Origin: Ariolimax columbianus
Taxonomy: Eukaryota > Mollusca > Gastropoda > Stylommatophora > Arionidae
NCBI GenBank assembly: GCA_036924085.1
Contig: JAVGWX010000004.1
Span: 11,101,916 to 11,165,915 of the forward strand
Direction: 5' to 3'
DNA length: 64,000 nt
Shown here piece by piece: positions 8,238 through 61,378 of this stretch. Numbering within the stretch: position 1 is the stretch's first letter; every line of letters starts with the position of its first letter. The notes beneath the pieces are model-generated. The model worked only from the letters and a program-made list of their open reading frames with translations. It made no database searches and had not been told where the DNA came from. Position numbers and translations under genes: made by a program.

Positions 8238-8438
8238 CAGTTTATAACTTAATTTAACATAACGTTTTTATACTGGTATAGAAGACTTTGCAGTCTGTAA
8301 ACAACCAGTTACCTTTACATTTCCTTGCTCTAAAAGCTATTTTTAAATGCATTAATGGTCCCTGCCTCCACTACTTCATGTGGCAATGCATTCCAAGCAT
8401 TCACCACTCTCTGACTAAAAAAATATTTCCTAATATCT
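8238..8438 (-). repeat. CR1-like LINE 3' fragment, left half of interrupted copy
   Basis: This 3' end of the CR1-like family carries the CTGACTAAAAAAATATTTCC segment seen intact at 4,932-4,953. It breaks at 8,438, and the missing continuation resumes at 15,806. This shows that the 7.35-kb insertion landed inside an older LINE copy. Confidence 0.9.
8425..8438. repeat. Target-site duplication, left copy (14 bp)
   Basis: ATTTCCTAATATCT here equals 15,792-15,805. The uninterrupted relative at 4,945-4,958 has the sequence once, as expected for an empty site. Confidence 0.95.
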
Positions 8439-8463
8439 TCTTCTTCTTCTTCTGCGTACACAG

Positions 8464-11400
8464 TCAGACAGTAACCATTATTTTCTCGAAAAAAGCGGCG
8501 GTCATCCTGAGACTCTCGCCACTACCATAGAGCTTGTCTTGCAGTTCCACTGGCAATGGCCACATCTGCTCTCTCTGATCCTCGTATGTCGGGCAGTTCT
8601 GCAGCAGATGTTCAGTGGTCATTTTACCAGTACCGCACGGGCATTCGTCGGTACACCCTATCTTCAATTTGTTGAAGAGGTGGTACCTCAGTCTGTTGTG
8701 GCCAGTGCGAAGTCTGAAGACAACGACCTGCTCTCTTCGGTTCAACTGGTAATAGGCATCGTTTTTGGTGTAACCAGTATGTTCGGTTTCCCATTTGGAC
8801 ATGTACCTGGCTTTGATAAGCCGTTTTGACTCTTCGTACGTCATACTGGTATCTATTTGTGGTAGCCTTGCACCTTCTTTTGCCAGTCTGTCTGCCTCCT
8901 CGTTGCCTTGGATGTTGCAGTGTGACGGAACCCACTGTACCACTACCCTTTTTGGTGCGGACTGTTGGCACAGTTTGCAGAGTGCTGCTCTTAAGTCATT
9001 AAGCTCAGTGTTTTTCTGGCTTTTTAGCGCTGTGACTACTTCGAGAGCATCTGTCAGCAGGACTATATGGCTCTCATTTTCACTGTGTGTTACCATTTCT
9101 TCCACTGCCGCCCTCAGTGCCTCTGCCTCTGCTCTGAAATTGCTCGTGTACTTACCAGTAGCGAATGACAGTGTTATTTTTCTGCCATTTGGTAGGTTCA
9201 GGAATGCTCCTGCCCCTCCGTTCTGTGTAGTGTTTGTTACAGAACCGTCGGTGTATGCATGGGTCCAGTCCATGCTTGGGTAGCTTTTCGTTATGAAGCT
9301 TAGGGTAGTGTCTCTCCTTTCTTTTTCGGTCTGGCAGTTTTTGTTTGCAATACCTGGTATATTTTCTACCACCTCTGGAAATATATCCTGCCTCCAAGTA
9401 GGTTTTCGTACAGTAGTGATGGGTTTTGGTGTTGTTAGTGCGTTTATGGGATCTTCGTGCATCTTTGCTTTGGCTATTTCTGCAAAGTTTCTCCGCTTTA
9501 GTTTCCCAGTTCCCAAATTGTTTAGCCTCTGGTACATTGGATGGTCCGTCAGTCTTCGGAGTTTCTCTGACTGCAGCTGGGCTCTGCAGTCTCTTCTGTC
9601 GGTCATGGATTGCAGTTTTGTAATCTTTTCAAGTTCTACAATTGGCGTTGACTTCATGCCACCTGTTATGATTCTCATGGCTTGGTTTTGAAGTTTGTTA
9701 ACTTTATCGAAGTTCGCCTTCGCTGCTGTTGTCCATGCCGCGATGCCATACTCGAGAACTGGTCTCACTCTTCCAGTGTACAGTTTCTTTAGTATGCCTT
9801 CGTCTGCTCCCCAGCTTGTGCCAGCAAGTTTCCTCATGATCGCCATTCTTTCTCTGGCTTTCATTCGGTTTCTCTCAATCTGACTTTTCCATGTCATGCG
9901 CCGATCAAATGTGACTCCCAGATAGGTTGGGTTGTCGTTTGGCTGCAGGATTTTGCCATTTAGGCTTAATTTGGTACTTTGGGGTTTTAATGAGAGCGAG
10001 AATATTGTGCACGTGGTTTTCTCCTCGTTTATTTTGACCAGCCATGAGTTCGCCCACTCTTCCAGCGATGTTAGGGCCGTTTGCATCCGATTTCTTGCTA
10101 TGGTGAGATTCTTTTCAGAGGTCCACATAGCCAGATCGTCTGCAAACATTGAGCTATGGACTCTTCTTGGTATATTCTCTGTAATATCGTTTATATATAC
10201 CAGGAAGAGTGTGGGTGACAGTACTCCCCCTTGGGGTACTCCCTGCTCGAGTGTCACCTTTTTGCTCATCTGCCCTTGTACTTGGACTCTGGCCGTTCTT
10301 TGTTTGAGGTAGTGGTTGATCCACTTGTACATCTTCCCACAAACATCACTTCTTCTTAGCTTGACTCTAAGTCCATCCTTCCAGACTTTGTCAAATGCCT
10401 TTTCCAGATCCACCCAAACAGCTACTGTGTGTTTCTGTGCCTGGTAGGCATCTTCTATCTCCTGGGCTATGAGGATGACCTGGTCCTCAGTGGATCTGTG
10501 CTGTCTAAAGCCGGCTTGCTGTGGAATTAGTATTCGTTTTTCTTCCAGATGCCACATCAGTCTGGTGTTTATCATCCGTTCCATCAGCTTGCCGACACAG
10601 CTCAGTAGGCTTATGGGCCTGTATCCATTCGGATCTGTTTTGTCCTTTCCTGTTTTTGGTACTGGTACCAGTATTGCATCTTTCCATGCCTGGGGTACAA
10701 TACCCCTTTTCCAGCTTTGGTTCAGGACTGATAGTAGTTTTTTCTTCGCTGTTTGGCCCAGCCCCATCAGCATTTCGTTTGTTATCCCGTCTTTTCCGGG
10801 AGATTTCCTTCTCTTTAGTGTTCTCATAGCCTCTTCCATTTCGCGCATTGTTAGTTTGGCCATCATGTGCTCTTCAGGAGCCGTATTTATGTTTTCGTGC
10901 CCCTTTAGCTCTTCGCTAATGTCTGTATGCTTATCTGCAGGGACCTCGATGTGGTTTGCTCTGGCATAGTGATCGACAAAGGCGTTTGCGGCTTTCTTAC
11001 CTGTGATCAAGTTCTCGCCTTGCTTGATAGTAATTTGTTTATTTGACGGGGTTTCGTCGTTCATGGCTCTGACTAGCTTCCATAGCTTGTTCCCTTCTTT
11101 GTCCAGGTTTAAACTTTCCGTTTTATTTTTCCAACTTTCTCTTGCTGTTTGCTTGAGAGTGTGTTTGTACTTCGCCGCGGCGGCTTTGAGGGCGATGTTT
11201 GCCTCCACGGATTTTTCTCGTTCTGCCATGTTCCTAGCATTTGTTACTGCATCTTCCACTTTCTGTAACTCATCATTCCAGTAGGGCTTATAGTTTTTCC
11301 TAGCTCCTCTTGGGATGGTTTCAGTGGCGGCTTGCATTATTGCCTTGCTTAGGCTCTCTACCATGGGCTTCATTTTGGTGTTTCGTGTGTTGATGGTTTC

Positions 11401-12372
11401 ACACAGCCCATCTGTCAGGATTGCAAATCTGTCCCAGTCGGCTCGTTTGTAATTCCAACGTGGGAGCGGTTTTGTTTCCTGTGGGCCTACTTCCATGTCA
11501 ATGGTTAGCCTGATCGGCCTGTGGTCGCTACCTGCCAGTTGGTTTAGCACCTGGCGGTCTATTTTATAGTGTATGTCCTGTGTGGAGAAGGCCAAATCTG
11601 GAGTCGAGGTGGTATGCCATGTTCTTGAATAGAAGCTAGGGCTATCCTCCGGCCTATTGATTAGGGAGAGATTTGCATCTATCTCCCAATCTTCCACTTC
11701 GTCACCTCTGCTGTCTGTGTCAGAGTATCCCCATCTCTCCGAGTGGCTGTTGAAATCTCCAACCACTATGCAGTTGGAGTCTCTGACCTCCATACTCGAG
11801 AGCGATAGGTCTCTGTTTGGTGGTCCGTACAGATTGAAAATGCGGAGCTTCGTCTCTTGAGCCATTATGTCAACTCCTACAATTTCTGCTTGTCCGGTGT
11901 GATTGACAGGTACCGCGCTACTCGGTATGCTGTTTCTGGTCAGTATCAGGACCCCTCCTTTGTGGCCTTCTCTATCTAGACGGAAAGTCTGGTATCCTCT
12001 GATTGAGAATTTATGGTTATTGTTGAGGTGCGTTTCCTGGATACATGCCACGTCAATCTTACCTTCATGCAGGTGATGTGTTAGGGAAAGTTTTTTGTTA
12101 ATGACTCCCTCCGCATTCCACTGTAATATTCTGAGGGTCTTGAGGTTTTGGCCAATAGTCGTTTCCCCATAGCCATGTGCCTTGACTCCACGACACATGG
12201 GTGGGTGACCACCAGTAGTCAAGGGTGGGCCCCTTCGAGGCGTGGGGCCCGGCGCTATCGCTGCCTGGCGGGTCTCCTCAGGATGAGCGCCATACGTTTT
12301 TCGAATAGGTTGTGCTGCCATCATACTGTGATTTACGTTGCACTGTTTTGTTAGGCTTGCGGCCCCGTGCAT
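8464..12372 (-). CDS. LINE ORF: AP-endonuclease / reverse transcriptase / RNase H polyprotein, intact
   Basis: An uninterrupted 1,302-residue frame. The N-terminal ~75 residues are Pro/Gly-rich without a known domain. AP-endonuclease at about 80-290 shows WNAEG, IQETHL, GDFNSHS and SDHRP. Reverse transcriptase at about 560-830 shows VDLEKAFDKVW, GVPQGGVLSPTLF and catalytic FADD (743-746). RNase H at about 1,038-1,165 shows YTDGS, FRAEAEAL, LLTDAL and WVPSHCNIQGNEEAD. A Cys/His motif follows (C1240, C1244, C1246, H1255, C1260). The protein would nick the target, copy its RNA and remove template RNA. The RNase H domain points to the I/R1/Nimb-like group, but I cannot choose a clade. The start is the first Met; a later one would still keep all domains. 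No separate ORF1 is visible upstream. All catalytic residues I can check are present, so the copy is young. Confidence 0.92.
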   Translation of the reverse strand: MHGAASLTKQCNVNHSMMAAQPIRKTYGAHPEETRQAAIAPGPTPRRGPPLTTGGHPPMCRGVKAHGYGETTIGQNLKTLRILQWNAEGVINKKLSLTHHLHEGKIDVACIQETHLNNNHKFSIRGYQTFRLDREGHKGGVLILTRNSIPSSAVPVNHTGQAEIVGVDIMAQETKLRIFNLYGPPNRDLSLSSMEVRDSNCIVVGDFNSHSERWGYSDTDSRGDEVEDWEIDANLSLINRPEDSPSFYSRTWHTTSTPDLAFSTQDIHYKIDRQVLNQLAGSDHRPIRLTIDMEVGPQETKPLPRWNYKRADWDRFAILTDGLCETINTRNTKMKPMVESLSKAIMQAATETIPRGARKNYKPYWNDELQKVEDAVTNARNMAEREKSVEANIALKAAAAKYKHTLKQTARESWKNKTESLNLDKEGNKLWKLVRAMNDETPSNKQITIKQGENLITGKKAANAFVDHYARANHIEVPADKHTDISEELKGHENINTAPEEHMMAKLTMREMEEAMRTLKRRKSPGKDGITNEMLMGLGQTAKKKLLSVLNQSWKRGIVPQAWKDAILVPVPKTGKDKTDPNGYRPISLLSCVGKLMERMINTRLMWHLEEKRILIPQQAGFRQHRSTEDQVILIAQEIEDAYQAQKHTVAVWVDLEKAFDKVWKDGLRVKLRRSDVCGKMYKWINHYLKQRTARVQVQGQMSKKVTLEQGVPQGGVLSPTLFLVYINDITENIPRRVHSSMFADDLAMWTSEKNLTIARNRMQTALTSLEEWANSWLVKINEEKTTCTIFSLSLKPQSTKLSLNGKILQPNDNPTYLGVTFDRRMTWKSQIERNRMKARERMAIMRKLAGTSWGADEGILKKLYTGRVRPVLEYGIAAWTTAAKANFDKVNKLQNQAMRIITGGMKSTPIVELEKITKLQSMTDRRDCRAQLQSEKLRRLTDHPMYQRLNNLGTGKLKRRNFAEIAKAKMHEDPINALTTPKPITTVRKPTWRQDIFPEVVENIPGIANKNCQTEKERRDTTLSFITKSYPSMDWTHAYTDGSVTNTTQNGGAGAFLNLPNGRKITLSFATGKYTSNFRAEAEALRAAVEEMVTHSENESHIVLLTDALEVVTALKSQKNTELNDLRAALCKLCQQSAPKRVVVQWVPSHCNIQGNEEADRLAKEGARLPQIDTSMTYEESKRLIKARYMSKWETEHTGYTKNDAYYQLNRREQVVVFRLRTGHNRLRYHLFNKLKIGCTDECPCGTGKMTTEHLLQNCPTYEDQREQMWPLPVELQDKLYGSGESLRMTAAFFEKIMVTV

Positions 12373-13271
12373 CCGATTTCAACAGGCGTTTCTGTAGGGA
12401 TGCCCTCCTTAGCCTTTGGCTGTCCCCAGCCTATCTGCAAGGCAGCAGTTGTTTACGATCAGAGTTTTCTCTCCTATGGAAGTTGTCTTACCAGACTATC
12501 GAGTCTTCACTACTCGTGTCTATAGGGTGCAATGATGGTATGTGATATATGAGATGGACTGGTTTACCCGGAAGAGAGGCAGTCCAGTGTGTCTGTATCC
12601 CAGGATCGTCACGTCCTGCCAGAAACGTAGCATTTGCATGTGAGTGGGGTATCTCTTTTTCCCTTTATTTTCTTGGCTTCTATGCAGGGATGGTACGCCT
12701 AGCATTCCCCGCCACCTGGGGTGTTGACACAGTGGGGCAGGTGTGCAATGTCCGCTGGTCTGCATCTCTTCTGCGTCCAGCATGATAGTTATGGCTGATA
12801 ACGTACAGAGGTAGATATCGTAACCGGAGTGCATTTAGCCAGAGGACAAGCCTGGTAATGTCACAGAGATGTTGATCGCCTGGTGTGCGGACAACTCTCA
12901 TGGTCAGTGGTTGAGTCTTGACAGTTCACAGTGTGGTGGCTGCTCTACTGTTTTCGACACCCCGACCAGGTTCTAAGTCTTTGGTTGGTGTTTTTCGCAC
13001 CCCATCGCCGTATAGGGTGAGTATCAAGCAGTTTTCCGCCCGCTTTGATTTGCGGGCGGCAAGGACCTCTTACTGTGGCTCTACCGGATAGGGCTGGGGC
13101 GCAAGCCCCAGGTCCCGAGCATGTAGGAGCCTCCCATTGCAGTGGTGCTGAGATTTTGGGCGGGATTGCGGCTTTCAAGGGTTCGGCCGTAATCCCCCAC
13201 ATGGTAGCCTCGCGCCCTTGGCTTATCAGCCTGGTACGTGAACCAAAGTGTCTGCGGCTCCTCTCGATTTG
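12373..13271 (-). other. LINE 5' UTR, non-repeated part
   Basis: This lies between the ORF start and the tandem 18S-bearing repeats. The longest minus-strand frame (12,945-13,301, 118 residues) has no zinc knuckles or coiled coil expected of an ORF1. I see no recognisable ORF1 product, so the element either has one ORF or has lost ORF1. Confidence 0.6.
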
Positions 13272-13927
13272 AGCTGGTTTTCCGTAGCAACGCCCTGTCA
13301 TTTGTAGGGTAAAACTGACCTGTCTTCAGATCTATTTCCAGCACCCGTGCACTATTTGGTCAGACGAATTTATTGAGGGCTTTTGTTTGTCAATGACCAG
13401 GTATTTGAAATCTGCGGAGTTAAACACGATTTCCGTAGCGTTCTTTCATTTGAGCTGACTTGTCGTCCGTGAGTCTAATACCAGCGTACGTTCATTATTA
13501 GACCCAAGCGGCAGTGCTCTCAATTTGTCAGTTGTTCTACAGTATTGGCGTGTTCAGTCAAATTAAGCCGCAGGTTCCACACCTGGTGGTGCCCTTCCGT
13601 CAATTCCCTTAGCGAGATAATCAAGTTTCTTAAAGGGTAGCCCCAAAGATTTTCGAGGGTCTAATTCCAGCACATGTTCTCTATTAGACCCCACTAAGGT
13701 GTACTTTTTGATAGTCATTCTGCAGTATTGGCGTGGTAAGTTAACTTAGGTCTCAGGCTCCACTCCTGATAGTGCTCTTCCGTCAATTCCTTTATCAAAC
13801 ACTGGATGCAGACAAAACCGAGCCACAGGGGACATAACCCCAGATTTCTGGGGGTCTAAGTCCAGCACCAGTTCCATATTAGACTCCAGAAGAGTGGTCT
13901 CGGCATGTCAATCATTTCAGTGTTGGT
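13272..13927 (-). repeat. 5' UTR tandem repeats carrying 18S target copies
   Basis: On the minus strand, units of about 183-196 bp each begin with a ~63-bp 18S-like block (13,732-13,794 and 13,549-13,611) that ends in CACG exactly where the real 18S ends at 13,928. Each block is followed by a spacer starting CCAATACTG (CCAACACTG in the first) and holding GGGTCTAAT-like and TTAGACCC-like boxes. A fourth degenerate unit at about 13,272-13,440 keeps spacer features (TTTCCGTAGC, CCAGCACC) but no clear 18S block. The 13,549 block is closer to 18S than the 13,732 block. Confidence 0.88.
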
Positions 13928-13950
13928 CGTGTTGAGTCAAATTAAGCCGC

Positions 13951-13999
<49 letters not shown>

Positions 14000-15159
14000 T
14001 TTGCAACCATACTTCCCCCGGAACCCAAACACTTTGGTTTCCCGGAAGCTGCCCGCAGAGTCATCGAAGCAACTCCTGCGGATCGCTAGTCGGCATCGTT
14101 TATGGTCAGAACTACGACGGTATCTGATCGTCTTCGCGCCTCTGACTTTCGTTCTTGATTAATGAAAACATTCTTGACAAATGCTTTCGCAGTAGCTCGT
14201 CTTGCGGCGATCCAAGAATTTCACCTCTAACGCCGCAATACGAATGCCCCCGTTTGTCCCTGTTAATCATTACCTCCAGTTCCGAAAACCAACAAAATAG
14301 AACCGAGGTCCTATTCCATTATTCCATGCACCATTATTCAGGCAGCCGAGGCCTGCTTTGAACACTCTAATTTTTTCAAAGTAAACGCGCCGGCCACCCA
14401 GGACGCTCAGCGAAGAGCACCCGTGGGAGAGAGCCGGCAGACGGTAGGGCAGGAGACAACGGGCAGTGAACCGGCGCGAGCCGGACCGCCCGCCTGCGCC
14501 TGAGATCCAACTACGAGCTTTTTAACTGCAACAACTTTAATATACGCTATTGGAGCTGGAATTACCGCGGCTGCTGGCACCAGACTTGCCCTCCAATAGA
14601 TCCTCGTTAAAGGGTTTAAAGTGTACTCATTCCAATTACGGGGCCTCGAAAGAGTCCCGTATTGTTATTTTTCGTCACTACCTCCCCGTGCCGGGAGTGG
14701 GTAAGTTGCGCGCCTGCTGCCTTCCTTGGATGTGGTAGCCGTTTCTCATGCTCCCTCTCCGGAATCGAACCCTGGTTACCCGTTACAAACATGGTAGGCA
14801 TGTCACGTACCATCGACATTTGATAGGGCAGACATTTGAAAGATGCGTCGCCGGCACATGGGGCCATGCGATCAGCACAAAGTTATCCAGAGTCACCAGT
14901 GGGGACGCCGCAACCCCGCGAGGGGAAACGACGATTGGTTTTGAACTAATAAAAGCGCTCTTTCCGCGAGGGTCGGAGCTTGGTAAGCATGTATTAGCTC
15001 TAGAATTGCCACAGTTATCCAAGTAGGATCGTGTCATCTAAGGAACCTCGACTGATTTAATGAGCCATTCGCGGTTTCACCGTGAGACAGTGTGAACTTA
15101 GACATGCATGGCTTAATCTTTGAGACAAGCATATGACTACTGGCAGGATCAACCAGATA
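13928..15159 (-). rRNA. 18S ribosomal RNA, 5' ~1.23 kb only (truncated retrocopy)
   Basis: The minus strand starts with TATCTGGTTGATCCTGCCAG at 15,159, the 5' end of eukaryotic 18S rRNA. Conserved tracts follow, including the GCCGCGGTAATTCCAGC region (about 14,560) and AGGAATTGACGG (about 13,976-13,988). It stops after TTGACTCAACACG at 13,928, so about the last third is missing. The V4 area (about 14,380-14,510) is GC-rich and perhaps expanded. I see no disabling change in the part present. Because it sits inside a TSD-bounded insertion away from any rDNA array, it is a retrotransposed piece and not a working rRNA gene. Confidence 0.95.
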
Positions 15160-15791
15160 TCTGTCGGAGACGTACGTACTGCGCACACCGGTCGGCGGAG
15201 GAAGGGTGTGTAAAAAGCCTCACTGGGACGGCCGCAGGGACCGACTGACGGGACGGACGGACGGTTGTTTCACCCGTCCCTCACTCCGTCGACCTAGGAC
15301 CGCCTGACAGGGGCCTCCCACACGCACCAGACGACCGACCGACCGGGCTCGCTCGAGGAGGGATGGCAGCGCTCTGTGCAGAACGGATCCCAACGACCTC
15401 GGCGATGAATTTCACTGGGACTAGAGACAATTTGGCCTGCCGGCCTGCCCTTCTCCGTAGGGAGAACGCAGGGCCTCGAGGCAACGATTCCTGCTTTCCA
15501 TTTGCCGGTCACAAGCTCTTTGCGAGAGTCGGACCACCAGCGAGACGTACTGTCGAGCTCTGCTATAAGCCTTAGATAAATCACCACGGACGGACCACGT
15601 TTCCTGATACGGACCAGACTAGCACACCTCGGTGGAGGAGCCACTACCACAAACCGCACCCAATTCGCACTACGGGGAAAGGCAGGCGAGCGTTTTCCGC
15701 AAGCCCGCGCTATCGCTCCGCCTGGCGGGACTGAGATCGCTTTACGAACACTGGTTGAAATTGAGTCGCTGCGGCGAGACAACTACCCCAG
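15160..15791 (-). other. 5' external transcribed spacer of rDNA (retrocopied)
   Basis: About 632 bp of GC-rich sequence lies directly upstream of the 18S 5' end, with short GACG/GACC-type simple repeats and no coding frame of note. Its position and the sharp end at the TSD identify it as the 5' ETS. The outer edge at 15,791 is where reverse transcription stopped and may be the Pol I start site. Confidence 0.8.
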
Positions 15792-15805
15792 ATTTCCTAA
15801 TATCT
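15792..15805. repeat. Target-site duplication, right copy (14 bp)
   Basis: ATTTCCTAATATCT, identical to 8,425-8,438, marks the 5' end of the chimeric insertion. Confidence 0.95.
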
Positions 15806-53064: not shown

Positions 53065-53305
53065 TTGTGGTCGTTGAATGTTCACAATTTTTAGTTAGCT
53101 TACTCTTTTATGTGCCTTGACAATGGCGTTATGTGGCGGCTTTCCTCACATCCCGAACGTGCTGATGAAGGTGGACCGCGGTCTCCCAAGCGGTTGTGCT
53201 ATGCTTGCGTCATCTGTATGACGCTCACTACTACGGGGATCACGTCGATCTAGGTCTCTCAGTCGGACTGCCTTGAAAACAGTATGTTTCTTTAAGAGAA
53301 GAGAG
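53065..53305 (+). repeat. Dispersed repeat family D, copy 4, left part
   Basis: GTTGAATGTTCACAAT, TTTCCTCACATCCCGAACGT, GCTCACTACTACGGGGATCA. It is interrupted near 53,305 by a piece of the RNase-H LINE and resumes at 53,591. Confidence 0.82.
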
Positions 53306-53590
53306 CAGGTCGTGGTCTTCAGACTCCGCACAGGCCACAGCAGACTGAGGTACCACCTATTCAATAAACGGAAGATAGGTGGCACTGACGAATGCACGTG
53401 TGGTACAGGAAAAATGATCGCTGAACATATGCTGCAAAACTGCCCGATATACGAGGACCAGAGAAAGCACATGTGGCCATCACCAGTGGCAACACTAGAC
53501 AAGCTCTATGGCAGTGCCGACAGCCTCAGGATGACCGCTGCTTTCTTCGAAAAAATACAGGTTGACGTCTGACAGCGTACGAAGAAGAAG
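53306..53590 (+). pseudogene. RNase-H LINE, 3' terminal copy, 5'-truncated
   Basis: It encodes the last ~95 residues of the RNase-H LINE protein (REQVVVFRLRTGHSRLRYHL, EHMLQNCPIYEDQR, LRMTAAFFEKI), then TGACAGCGTACGAAGAAGAAG. The Cys/His motif has lost one Cys (GGTDEC in place of GCTDEC). GAAGAGAG (53,298-53,305 and 53,591-53,598) is a possible short TSD. It shows that the LINE inserts outside 18S, at least occasionally. Confidence 0.9.
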
Positions 53591-53720
53591 GAAGAGAGAT
53601 AGTGGTCTTGGTCAGTATATTGTGCCTGACCCACACGCGACGTCCTGGTCAGTATGTTGTGCCTGAACGGACTATCGCCTCAGCTCCCCAATATTTGGCT
53701 GGAATATCGTATTTACTTGT
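53591..53720 (+). repeat. Dispersed repeat family D, copy 4, right part
   Basis: GGTCTTGGTCAGTATATTG, TGCCTGACC and GGAATATCGTATTTACTTG continue copy 4 after the LINE piece. Confidence 0.75.
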
Positions 53721-61142: not shown

Positions 61143-61378
61143 GGGGATGGAATGGACACCTTGTTAAGTGCCACGGCTCACAACTCGAAGGTGCTGGGTT
61201 GGCTCCATAAACATAGCACCGGCCGCTACCTCAGGGAATCAAACTCTTAAAAAATGCAGGAGTAAGCACACCCTTACATAAAATGCATGTCGAAATCGGA
61301 TGCACTGGGCTGACAGGCGCAAAATAACAGTGCAAAAATAACACACTGCCCTGGGGAATAGAGAAATAAGGCAAAAAA
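61143..61378 (+). repeat. SINE family A, older copy
   Basis: Head GGGGATGGAATGGACACC then GTTAAGTGCCACGGCTCAC, mutated box B GGTTGGCTCC, family A body, ending AGAAATAAGGCAAA. Confidence 0.88.

Follow-up and report, generated by a model that had tools for sequence, protein, structure and literature searches.

The retrotransposons R2, which encodes a restriction-like endonuclease, and R1 sit in ribosomal RNA (rRNA) genes, the long interspersed nuclear element (LINE) R7 inserts in 18S, and Pokey, unlike the element described below, is a DNA transposon and carries along no co-transcribed rRNA; we know of no dispersed 18S-bearing copies of R7 or of R8. Excerpts of the papers cited here report that R2 elements are transcribed only within the pre-rRNA (PMC8789037), that an R2 ribozyme frees its RNA at, or at most 36 nt upstream of, the junction (PMC3774820), that R8 of Hydra inserts in 18S and that some R2 families have a 28S-like 3' untranslated region (UTR) replacing 110-130 bp of 28S (PMC5035012), that Pokey of Daphnia lives in ribosomal DNA (rDNA) and elsewhere (PMC4912750), and that human chimeras of 28S rRNA and LINE-1 (18 loci, 50-482 nt of 28S) carry the rRNA at the LINE 5' end, 83% of them in sense, and are credited to ligation or switching (PMC13174262). 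Here we describe a stretch of 64,000 nt (henceforth referred to as the window) from contig JAVGWX010000004.1 of the gastropod Ariolimax columbianus, in which a LINE joined at its 5' end to pre-rRNA sequence is inserted into a CR1-like repeat. Comparison of its copies across the genome suggests that rDNA-resident copies of this LINE, co-transcribed from the rRNA start, very probably seeded the genome with such joint copies.

Like R2 and R1, copies of this LINE sit in rRNA genes (in one array unit, and in an 18S gene as preserved in a retrocopy), but its insertion is not confined to rDNA. It inserts in 18S like R8, but in contrast to R8 and R7 it is not 18S-specific, and like Pokey it lives in rDNA and elsewhere. 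Unlike R2, it has APE-type Exo_endo_phos domains in place of a restriction-like endonuclease, its copies are dispersed, and at least 1.9 kb of pre-rRNA stays on it. It shares rRNA at the 5' end with the human chimeras, whereas here the spacer from the start site together with 18S is found in most copies read, and there is a resident source copy. As in the R2 families with a 28S-like 3'UTR, rRNA sequence has been absorbed into the LINE, but here on the 5' side and in layers. A limited literature search, judged by title and abstract, yielded no LINE family carrying 18S or the spacer and no generic LINE spreading the 5' part of the pre-rRNA.

The insert and its copies across the genome

The insert is flanked by a 14-bp target-site duplication (TSD; ATTTCCTAATATCT), and in a BLASTN search its flanks, joined over one TSD, matched three CR1-like relatives in the window, in each case as one alignment that runs through the joint (74-81% identity). 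On the minus strand it consists of the 5' external transcribed spacer (ETS), 18S, three 5'UTR units separated by two 63-nt 18S boxes, a 28S 3' end, a leader, one open reading frame (ORF) and (AAG)n (coordinates in Table 1); the small-subunit (SSU) rRNA model matched this strand with 1053 bits over model positions 1-1251. In terms of 18S positions, both boxes end almost where the main junction between 18S and LINE (13928) lies. The original prediction for this stretch had named the 14-bp duplication, which was found as described; it had further named ETS-like DNA with the first 1.23 kb of 18S, a complete RNase-H LINE in the same orientation and continuity of the CR1-like host, which are borne out, respectively, by the SSU rRNA match and the ETS of rDNA units, by an ORF of 1302 aa with three domains, and by the joined-flank alignments. 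It thereby had the main parts of the insert right and missed the rRNA pieces in the 5'UTR, namely the two 63-nt 18S pieces and the diverged 28S 3' end. The window copy also has a 7-nt deletion in 18S, which we rejected as a family-inherited trait since the majority of copies are without it.

To place the insert among its relatives, the genome (2.29 Gb) was searched with window positions 12700-13928. The search yielded 3,479 candidates, and the best 40, all stated as 100%, were scored. Most of these are found on chromosome-size contigs, and the sites marked by their TSDs are unrelated. Besides the window copy, 20 copies were read as long stretches (L027, which is inverted, was left out of the alignment) and the remaining 19 in pieces, 7 of these at the 5' end alone. 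The element starts within 7 nt of insert position 1 in 16 of the 20 copies read at length, the other four being truncated or rearranged. Position 1 is also the start of 12 of the remaining 19 copies; a further 2 begin inside the ETS, and in 5 the piece read contains no ETS. Window included, 29 of the 40 scored copies start no more than 7 nt from one nucleotide, ATCTGGGG, which we take as the element start because the bases AT stand between the TSD and CTGGGG in many copies. The site-1 copies fetched share 98.6-99.6% identity with the window copy, and private substitutions amount to 0.6-1.7 per kb in each segment, which indicates that the copies are young. A TSD was identified in 12 of 18 copies tested (12 bp or longer) and in 11 of 12 additional ones (11 bp or longer); among the latter it is oddly placed in L037 (24 nt long, 10 nt before the element) and in L047 (23 nt before the element, behind a repeat of the element's start).

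Although rDNA and repeats are prone to misassembly, the different flanks of the copies, their TSDs and the continuous host sequence of the window copy make an assembly artefact scarcely credible. With many genomic copies and a common start, a one-off event was rejected, as was strict 18S specificity given the dispersed TSDs. The interpretation first offered for this locus, a LINE in 18S giving rise to a joint copy, is thus supported, but not as a single fossil, as the pattern is family-wide.

Three of the copies have unusual 5' ends: L047 begins with a repeat of ~20 nt of its own ETS start, and the rearranged 5' ends of L013 and L027 contain a displaced 330-nt piece and an inverted segment, respectively.

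The probable rRNA start site and copies resident in rDNA

All five rDNA units read around the predicted ETS start have the ETS behind a TATA-like sequence (GGAATGTATATT/ATCTGGGG; a slash marks junctions throughout). The 26-nt junction of promoter and ETS has 119 exact matches in the genome (control 0); among the 100 of these that were listed, 13 small contigs account for 98, for the most part spaced in series of ~12.15-12.3 kb, and the chromosome-size contigs C10 and C12 for the other two. This junction was found in 0 of the 27 full-length LINE copies with the 5' flank printed. The 5' end shared by the copies, together with the TATA-like sequence, suggests that ATCTGGGG is the RNA polymerase I start, and the common 5' end of the copies likewise points to co-transcription of the LINE with the pre-rRNA.

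At the junction seen in the window (site 1), AACACGG/CCAACACTG is present in 19 of 20 aligned copies, the 20th being the window copy, with a G-to-A change there. Judged by promoter spacings, several array units exceed 12.2 kb, and in four over-long units the predicted 18S position was inspected: 18S is joined to LINE there in one, another has plain 18S, and two were unreadable. A search for the LINE joined to 18S at this site in rDNA arrays had been proposed as a check from the outset, and the result was therefore positive in one of the four units probed. The unit in question (C67:99033) reads CGG/CCAACACTGAAATGATTGACATGCC, the junction of the family, at a distance of ~1,850 nt from the putative rRNA start (expected distance ~1,866 nt), and extends over 18,554 nt to the next promoter, an excess of 6.4 kb.

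Further junctions were sought with an 18S 3' piece (best 40 of 385 candidates scored, over chromosome-size contigs). All 12 loci read are joint copies, and the switch to LINE occurs at TTCGCC/ in 8 of them, with 7 or 8 distinct LINE starts among them (the start in L097 differs from that in L102 by one base); the others switch at GGTCTCGGTCT/ (2), at CCCTGCCC/ (1) and in internal transcribed spacer 1 (ITS1; L098). In L096 and L101 the junction is followed by a fresh ATCTGGGG start and then by ETS and 18S up to the edge of the stretch; these two are probably joint elements that landed inside 18S and were exported again, the LINE part there being unread. Among the matches to an ITS1 search, L098 and a locus on C17 were read, plus short ETS or 18S pieces from some rDNA contigs. 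At one place in the genome (control 0) the LINE tail is followed by AAATAGTTCGCC, a 12-bp duplication of the TTCGCC/ site, and then by downstream 18S. This junction lies in the C17 locus, a retrocopy with its own 15-bp TSD and the order LINE1-18S-ITS1-LINE2, the arrangement that RNA from a unit holding two LINEs would give. The placement of the LINE in 18S by the original prediction accordingly holds for the array unit and the retrocopy, but the LINE is not confined to 18S, as it is also found in ITS1.

Judged by eye, 4 of 5 junction sites are preceded by TT at a distance of 11-13 nt (background 0.155; P 0.0026; for ATT, P 2.4e-5). At dispersed insertion sites with the TSD edge read, TT is at the nick in 14 of 21, and within one base of it in 17 of 21. 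The matching position of TT therefore fits insertion into rRNA genes by the LINE's own endonuclease. A sixth junction (ITS1, in the C17 retrocopy) was not counted, its breakpoint being left open by shared bases; TT lies 12 to 15 nt upstream of it (by eye).

These junctions bear on whether the LINE needs to have been in rDNA at all: the reverse transcriptase could instead have switched from LINE RNA to pre-rRNA and copied it to its 5' end, without any rDNA-resident LINE. Human 28S/LINE-1 chimeras are credited to switching or RNA ligation in the part of PMC13174262 cited above. Varied LINE starts at one 18S position would fit jumps between RNA ends, as would the fresh ETS start behind 18S in L096 and L101, and L047 with its repeated 5' end may be counted here too. 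However, jumping leaves unexplained the LINE tail that runs into duplicated and then downstream 18S, the site-1 junction held by an array unit, the TT at 4 of 5 junction sites, and a site-1 junction that is the same in all aligned copies save for one base in the window copy; moreover, mature 18S, without ETS, would be the commoner acceptor. As a DNA-level source of the joined RNA exists both for site 1 and for the TTCGCC/ site, we regard template jumping as very unlikely to be the origin of the family.

We propose instead that a LINE with a low-specificity endonuclease, nicking mostly after TT, would insert genome-wide, rRNA genes included, and that sense copies in 18S or ITS1, downstream of the rRNA promoter, would be transcribed with the rRNA. 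The resulting ETS-18S-LINE RNAs would begin at the rRNA start site, and the LINE machinery would prime on the (AAG)n tail and insert copies of the joint RNA at new sites, most of them flanked by duplications of 11-15 bp. Copying of such RNAs would explain why most dispersed copies examined are without the promoter and carry ETS and 18S as far as the point at which the LINE had entered their source. Overall, insertion, co-transcription and joint-RNA retrotransposition account for nearly all observations, and the 18S boxes and 28S end in the LINE 5'UTR may well stem from older rounds of the same process.

Sequence variation and the source of the spacer

Shared biallelic sites among the copies number 13 in 625 columns of the ETS, 0 in 1231 of 18S, 2 in 1557 of the other 5' non-coding parts of the LINE (boxes, 28S and leader) and 24 in 3908 of the ORF, the excess in the ETS over the other 5' non-coding parts having a p of 4.6e-6. 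A second set of nine loci with other junctions gave 5 in 279 columns for the ETS and 0 in 1396 for 18S. A polymorphic ETS beside an invariant 18S is the pattern of working rRNA genes. Alleles of rDNA at ETS positions 386, 561, 570 and 609 are also found in LINE copies; the C190 rDNA unit and the ETS of L037 differ in 4 columns, with the same alleles at 561, 570 and 609, and the C222 rDNA unit and the inner ETS of L101 differ in 5. ETS class by ORF haplotype in 27 copies is distributed 9/4/8/6 (p 0.69; table assembled by hand, with the incomplete L030 and L042 left out), and ETS and LINE haplotypes reassort, while not being fully unlinked. Linkage between sites of the LINE is uneven: site 2174 has an r2 of 1.0 with 3648, 5330 and 6276 and is weakly linked with 3661, 4680 and 6937 (0.05-0.29), and the mean r2 over pairs of LINE sites is 0.499.

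The same data bear on the possibility that ETS-18S was taken from rDNA once or a few times and that the joint element then spread clonally via another promoter. Such a capture agrees with the high identity of the fetched site-1 copies to the window copy, with ETS position 19, which separates most LINE copies from the sampled rDNA, and with some ETS-LINE linkage, and recombination among copies could mimic the reassortment. However, it does not accommodate an ETS far richer in shared variants than the other 5' non-coding parts of the LINE, the ETS alleles common to LINE copies and rDNA, the lack of shared 18S variants in either copy set, the absence of the promoter from copies with the 5' flank printed, or several independent junctions between pre-rRNA and LINE. 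We therefore consider a captured chimera unlikely.

Several findings nonetheless weigh against repeated seeding from rDNA-resident copies. The excess length of the C67 unit (6.4 kb) is larger than the LINE (~5.5 kb); the identity of its ~1.85 kb from promoter to junction as ETS and 18S rests on length, and the LINE 3' end in it is unread. An exact-pattern genome search for the 3' junction at site 1 gave 0 matches. The ITS1 junction of L098 is without TT, and counting the sixth junction as a miss gives 4 of 6 (P ~0.007, by hand, same background). At ETS position 19 all 5 rDNA units have T, against C in 28 of 30 LINE-copy ETS rows, and rDNA has ETS alleles unseen in LINE copies, which indicates that the sampled rDNA units are not the main source. 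Mean r2 between ETS and LINE sites is 0.151, against 0.065 when permuted, with site 22 reaching up to 0.74, and four gametes in 61 of 276 site pairs point to recombination inside the ORF. The DNA-level steps of the proposed seeding rest on one array unit and one retrocopy.

With these points weighed, we further think it reasonably probable that this is a LINE lineage whose active sources lie in rRNA genes and use the rRNA promoter, whose dispersed offspring are promoterless, and whose re-entry into rDNA has built up a layered 5' end. Generic endonuclease sites would permit entry into 18S and ITS1, the full 5' part of the pre-rRNA would ride along, and the layers would be the 28S end, the 18S boxes, 18S with ETS, and the nested ETS-18S. 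If this holds, a non-specific LINE can use rDNA as source locus, together with the rRNA promoter, without cutting its RNA free, and rDNA sequence has been exported to many sites (on the best 40 of 3,479 candidates scored). The 5' ends of the copies would mark the rRNA start site and record the rDNA units active in the germ line, and the choice of source copies would become testable, as would growth of a LINE 5'UTR by capture of host transcripts.

The encoded protein, feature coordinates and minor observations

The stop-free frame of the LINE (12372-8464, 1302 aa) contains Exo_endo_phos (APE-type), reverse transcriptase and RNase H domains. Its closest full-length protein match, which is without a name, is 71% identical, and named relatives among the matches come from the gastropods Littorina saxatilis and Batillaria attramentaria; comparison of the ORF with viral contigs gave no confirmed relative. 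A single ORF with APE endonuclease, reverse transcriptase and RNase H is a trait of Ingi-like elements of the I group, to which the LINE presumably belongs. Ingi elements are reported in gastropods in an excerpt of PMC11203168, and the trypanosomatid L1Tc/ingi elements are described in part of PMC4035085 as having a ribozyme like that of hepatitis delta virus (HDV) at the 5' end.

Near the ORF start (window 12291-12190) the peptide motif GA.P.E.RQAG..PGP.P..GPP.TGG is kept in many relatives, with variable residues before it, and GC-rich hairpins are predicted. As this N-terminal motif is conserved, an HDV-like ribozyme at the ORF start, marking the true LINE 5' end, was considered; a crude descriptor search found nothing beyond six shuffles, and since the 5'UTR moreover belongs to the aligned copies, the idea was dropped.

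Table 1. Parts of the insert and flanking duplications in the window
Feature	Position	Strand	Remark
TSD at element 5' end, in CR1-like host copy	15792-15805	.	
5' ETS	15160-15791	-	
18S rRNA nt 1 to ~1232 (1239 in majority of copies)	13928-15159	-	
5'UTR unit A, first LINE-specific sequence behind 18S junction	13795-13927	-	
Internal 18S box B, 63 nt, 53/63 identical to 18S flank	13732-13794	-	
5'UTR unit B	13612-13731	-	
Internal 18S box C, 63 nt, 59/63 identical to 18S flank	13549-13611	-	
5'UTR unit C	13321-13548	-	
Diverged 28S rRNA 3' end	12893-13320	-	Rfam large-subunit (LSU) model 12893-13296, 60-66 bits; last ~24 nt by eye
Leader; last part resembles translated upstream part of some relatives (by eye)	12373-12892	-	
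Single ORF, 1302 aa: APE endonuclease, reverse transcriptase, RNase H	8464-12372	-	
Short 3' end with (AAG)n tail	8439-8463	-	
TSD at element 3' end	8425-8438	.	

Each 5'UTR unit contains a similar hairpin-forming stretch (GGGTCTAAT...ATTAGACCC; window 13468-13886). Approximately 30 nt of the ETS (window 15732-15703) match the ORF start of the LINE (12275-12247) with a score of 39, which was reached by 0 of 200 shuffles (maximum 30). Elsewhere in the window, positions 53298-53595 hold an older 5'-truncated copy of the LINE 3' end (84% identity), at a site that is non-rDNA as far as read, and positions 61281-61335 a piece like the leader just upstream of the ORF (80%).

Twenty small contigs were sampled (one unreadable); satellites and two matches to the LINE were found in them, but none to rRNA. 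Seven loci on small contigs (L075, L076, L078, L080, L082, L085 and L090) consist of an AT-rich tandem satellite with a period of ~168 nt. On a contig that carries rDNA promoters, L088 (G000:C190:2001-2128) matches 128 nt of the LINE in antisense at 100% identity, ~3.1 kb upstream of one of these promoters.

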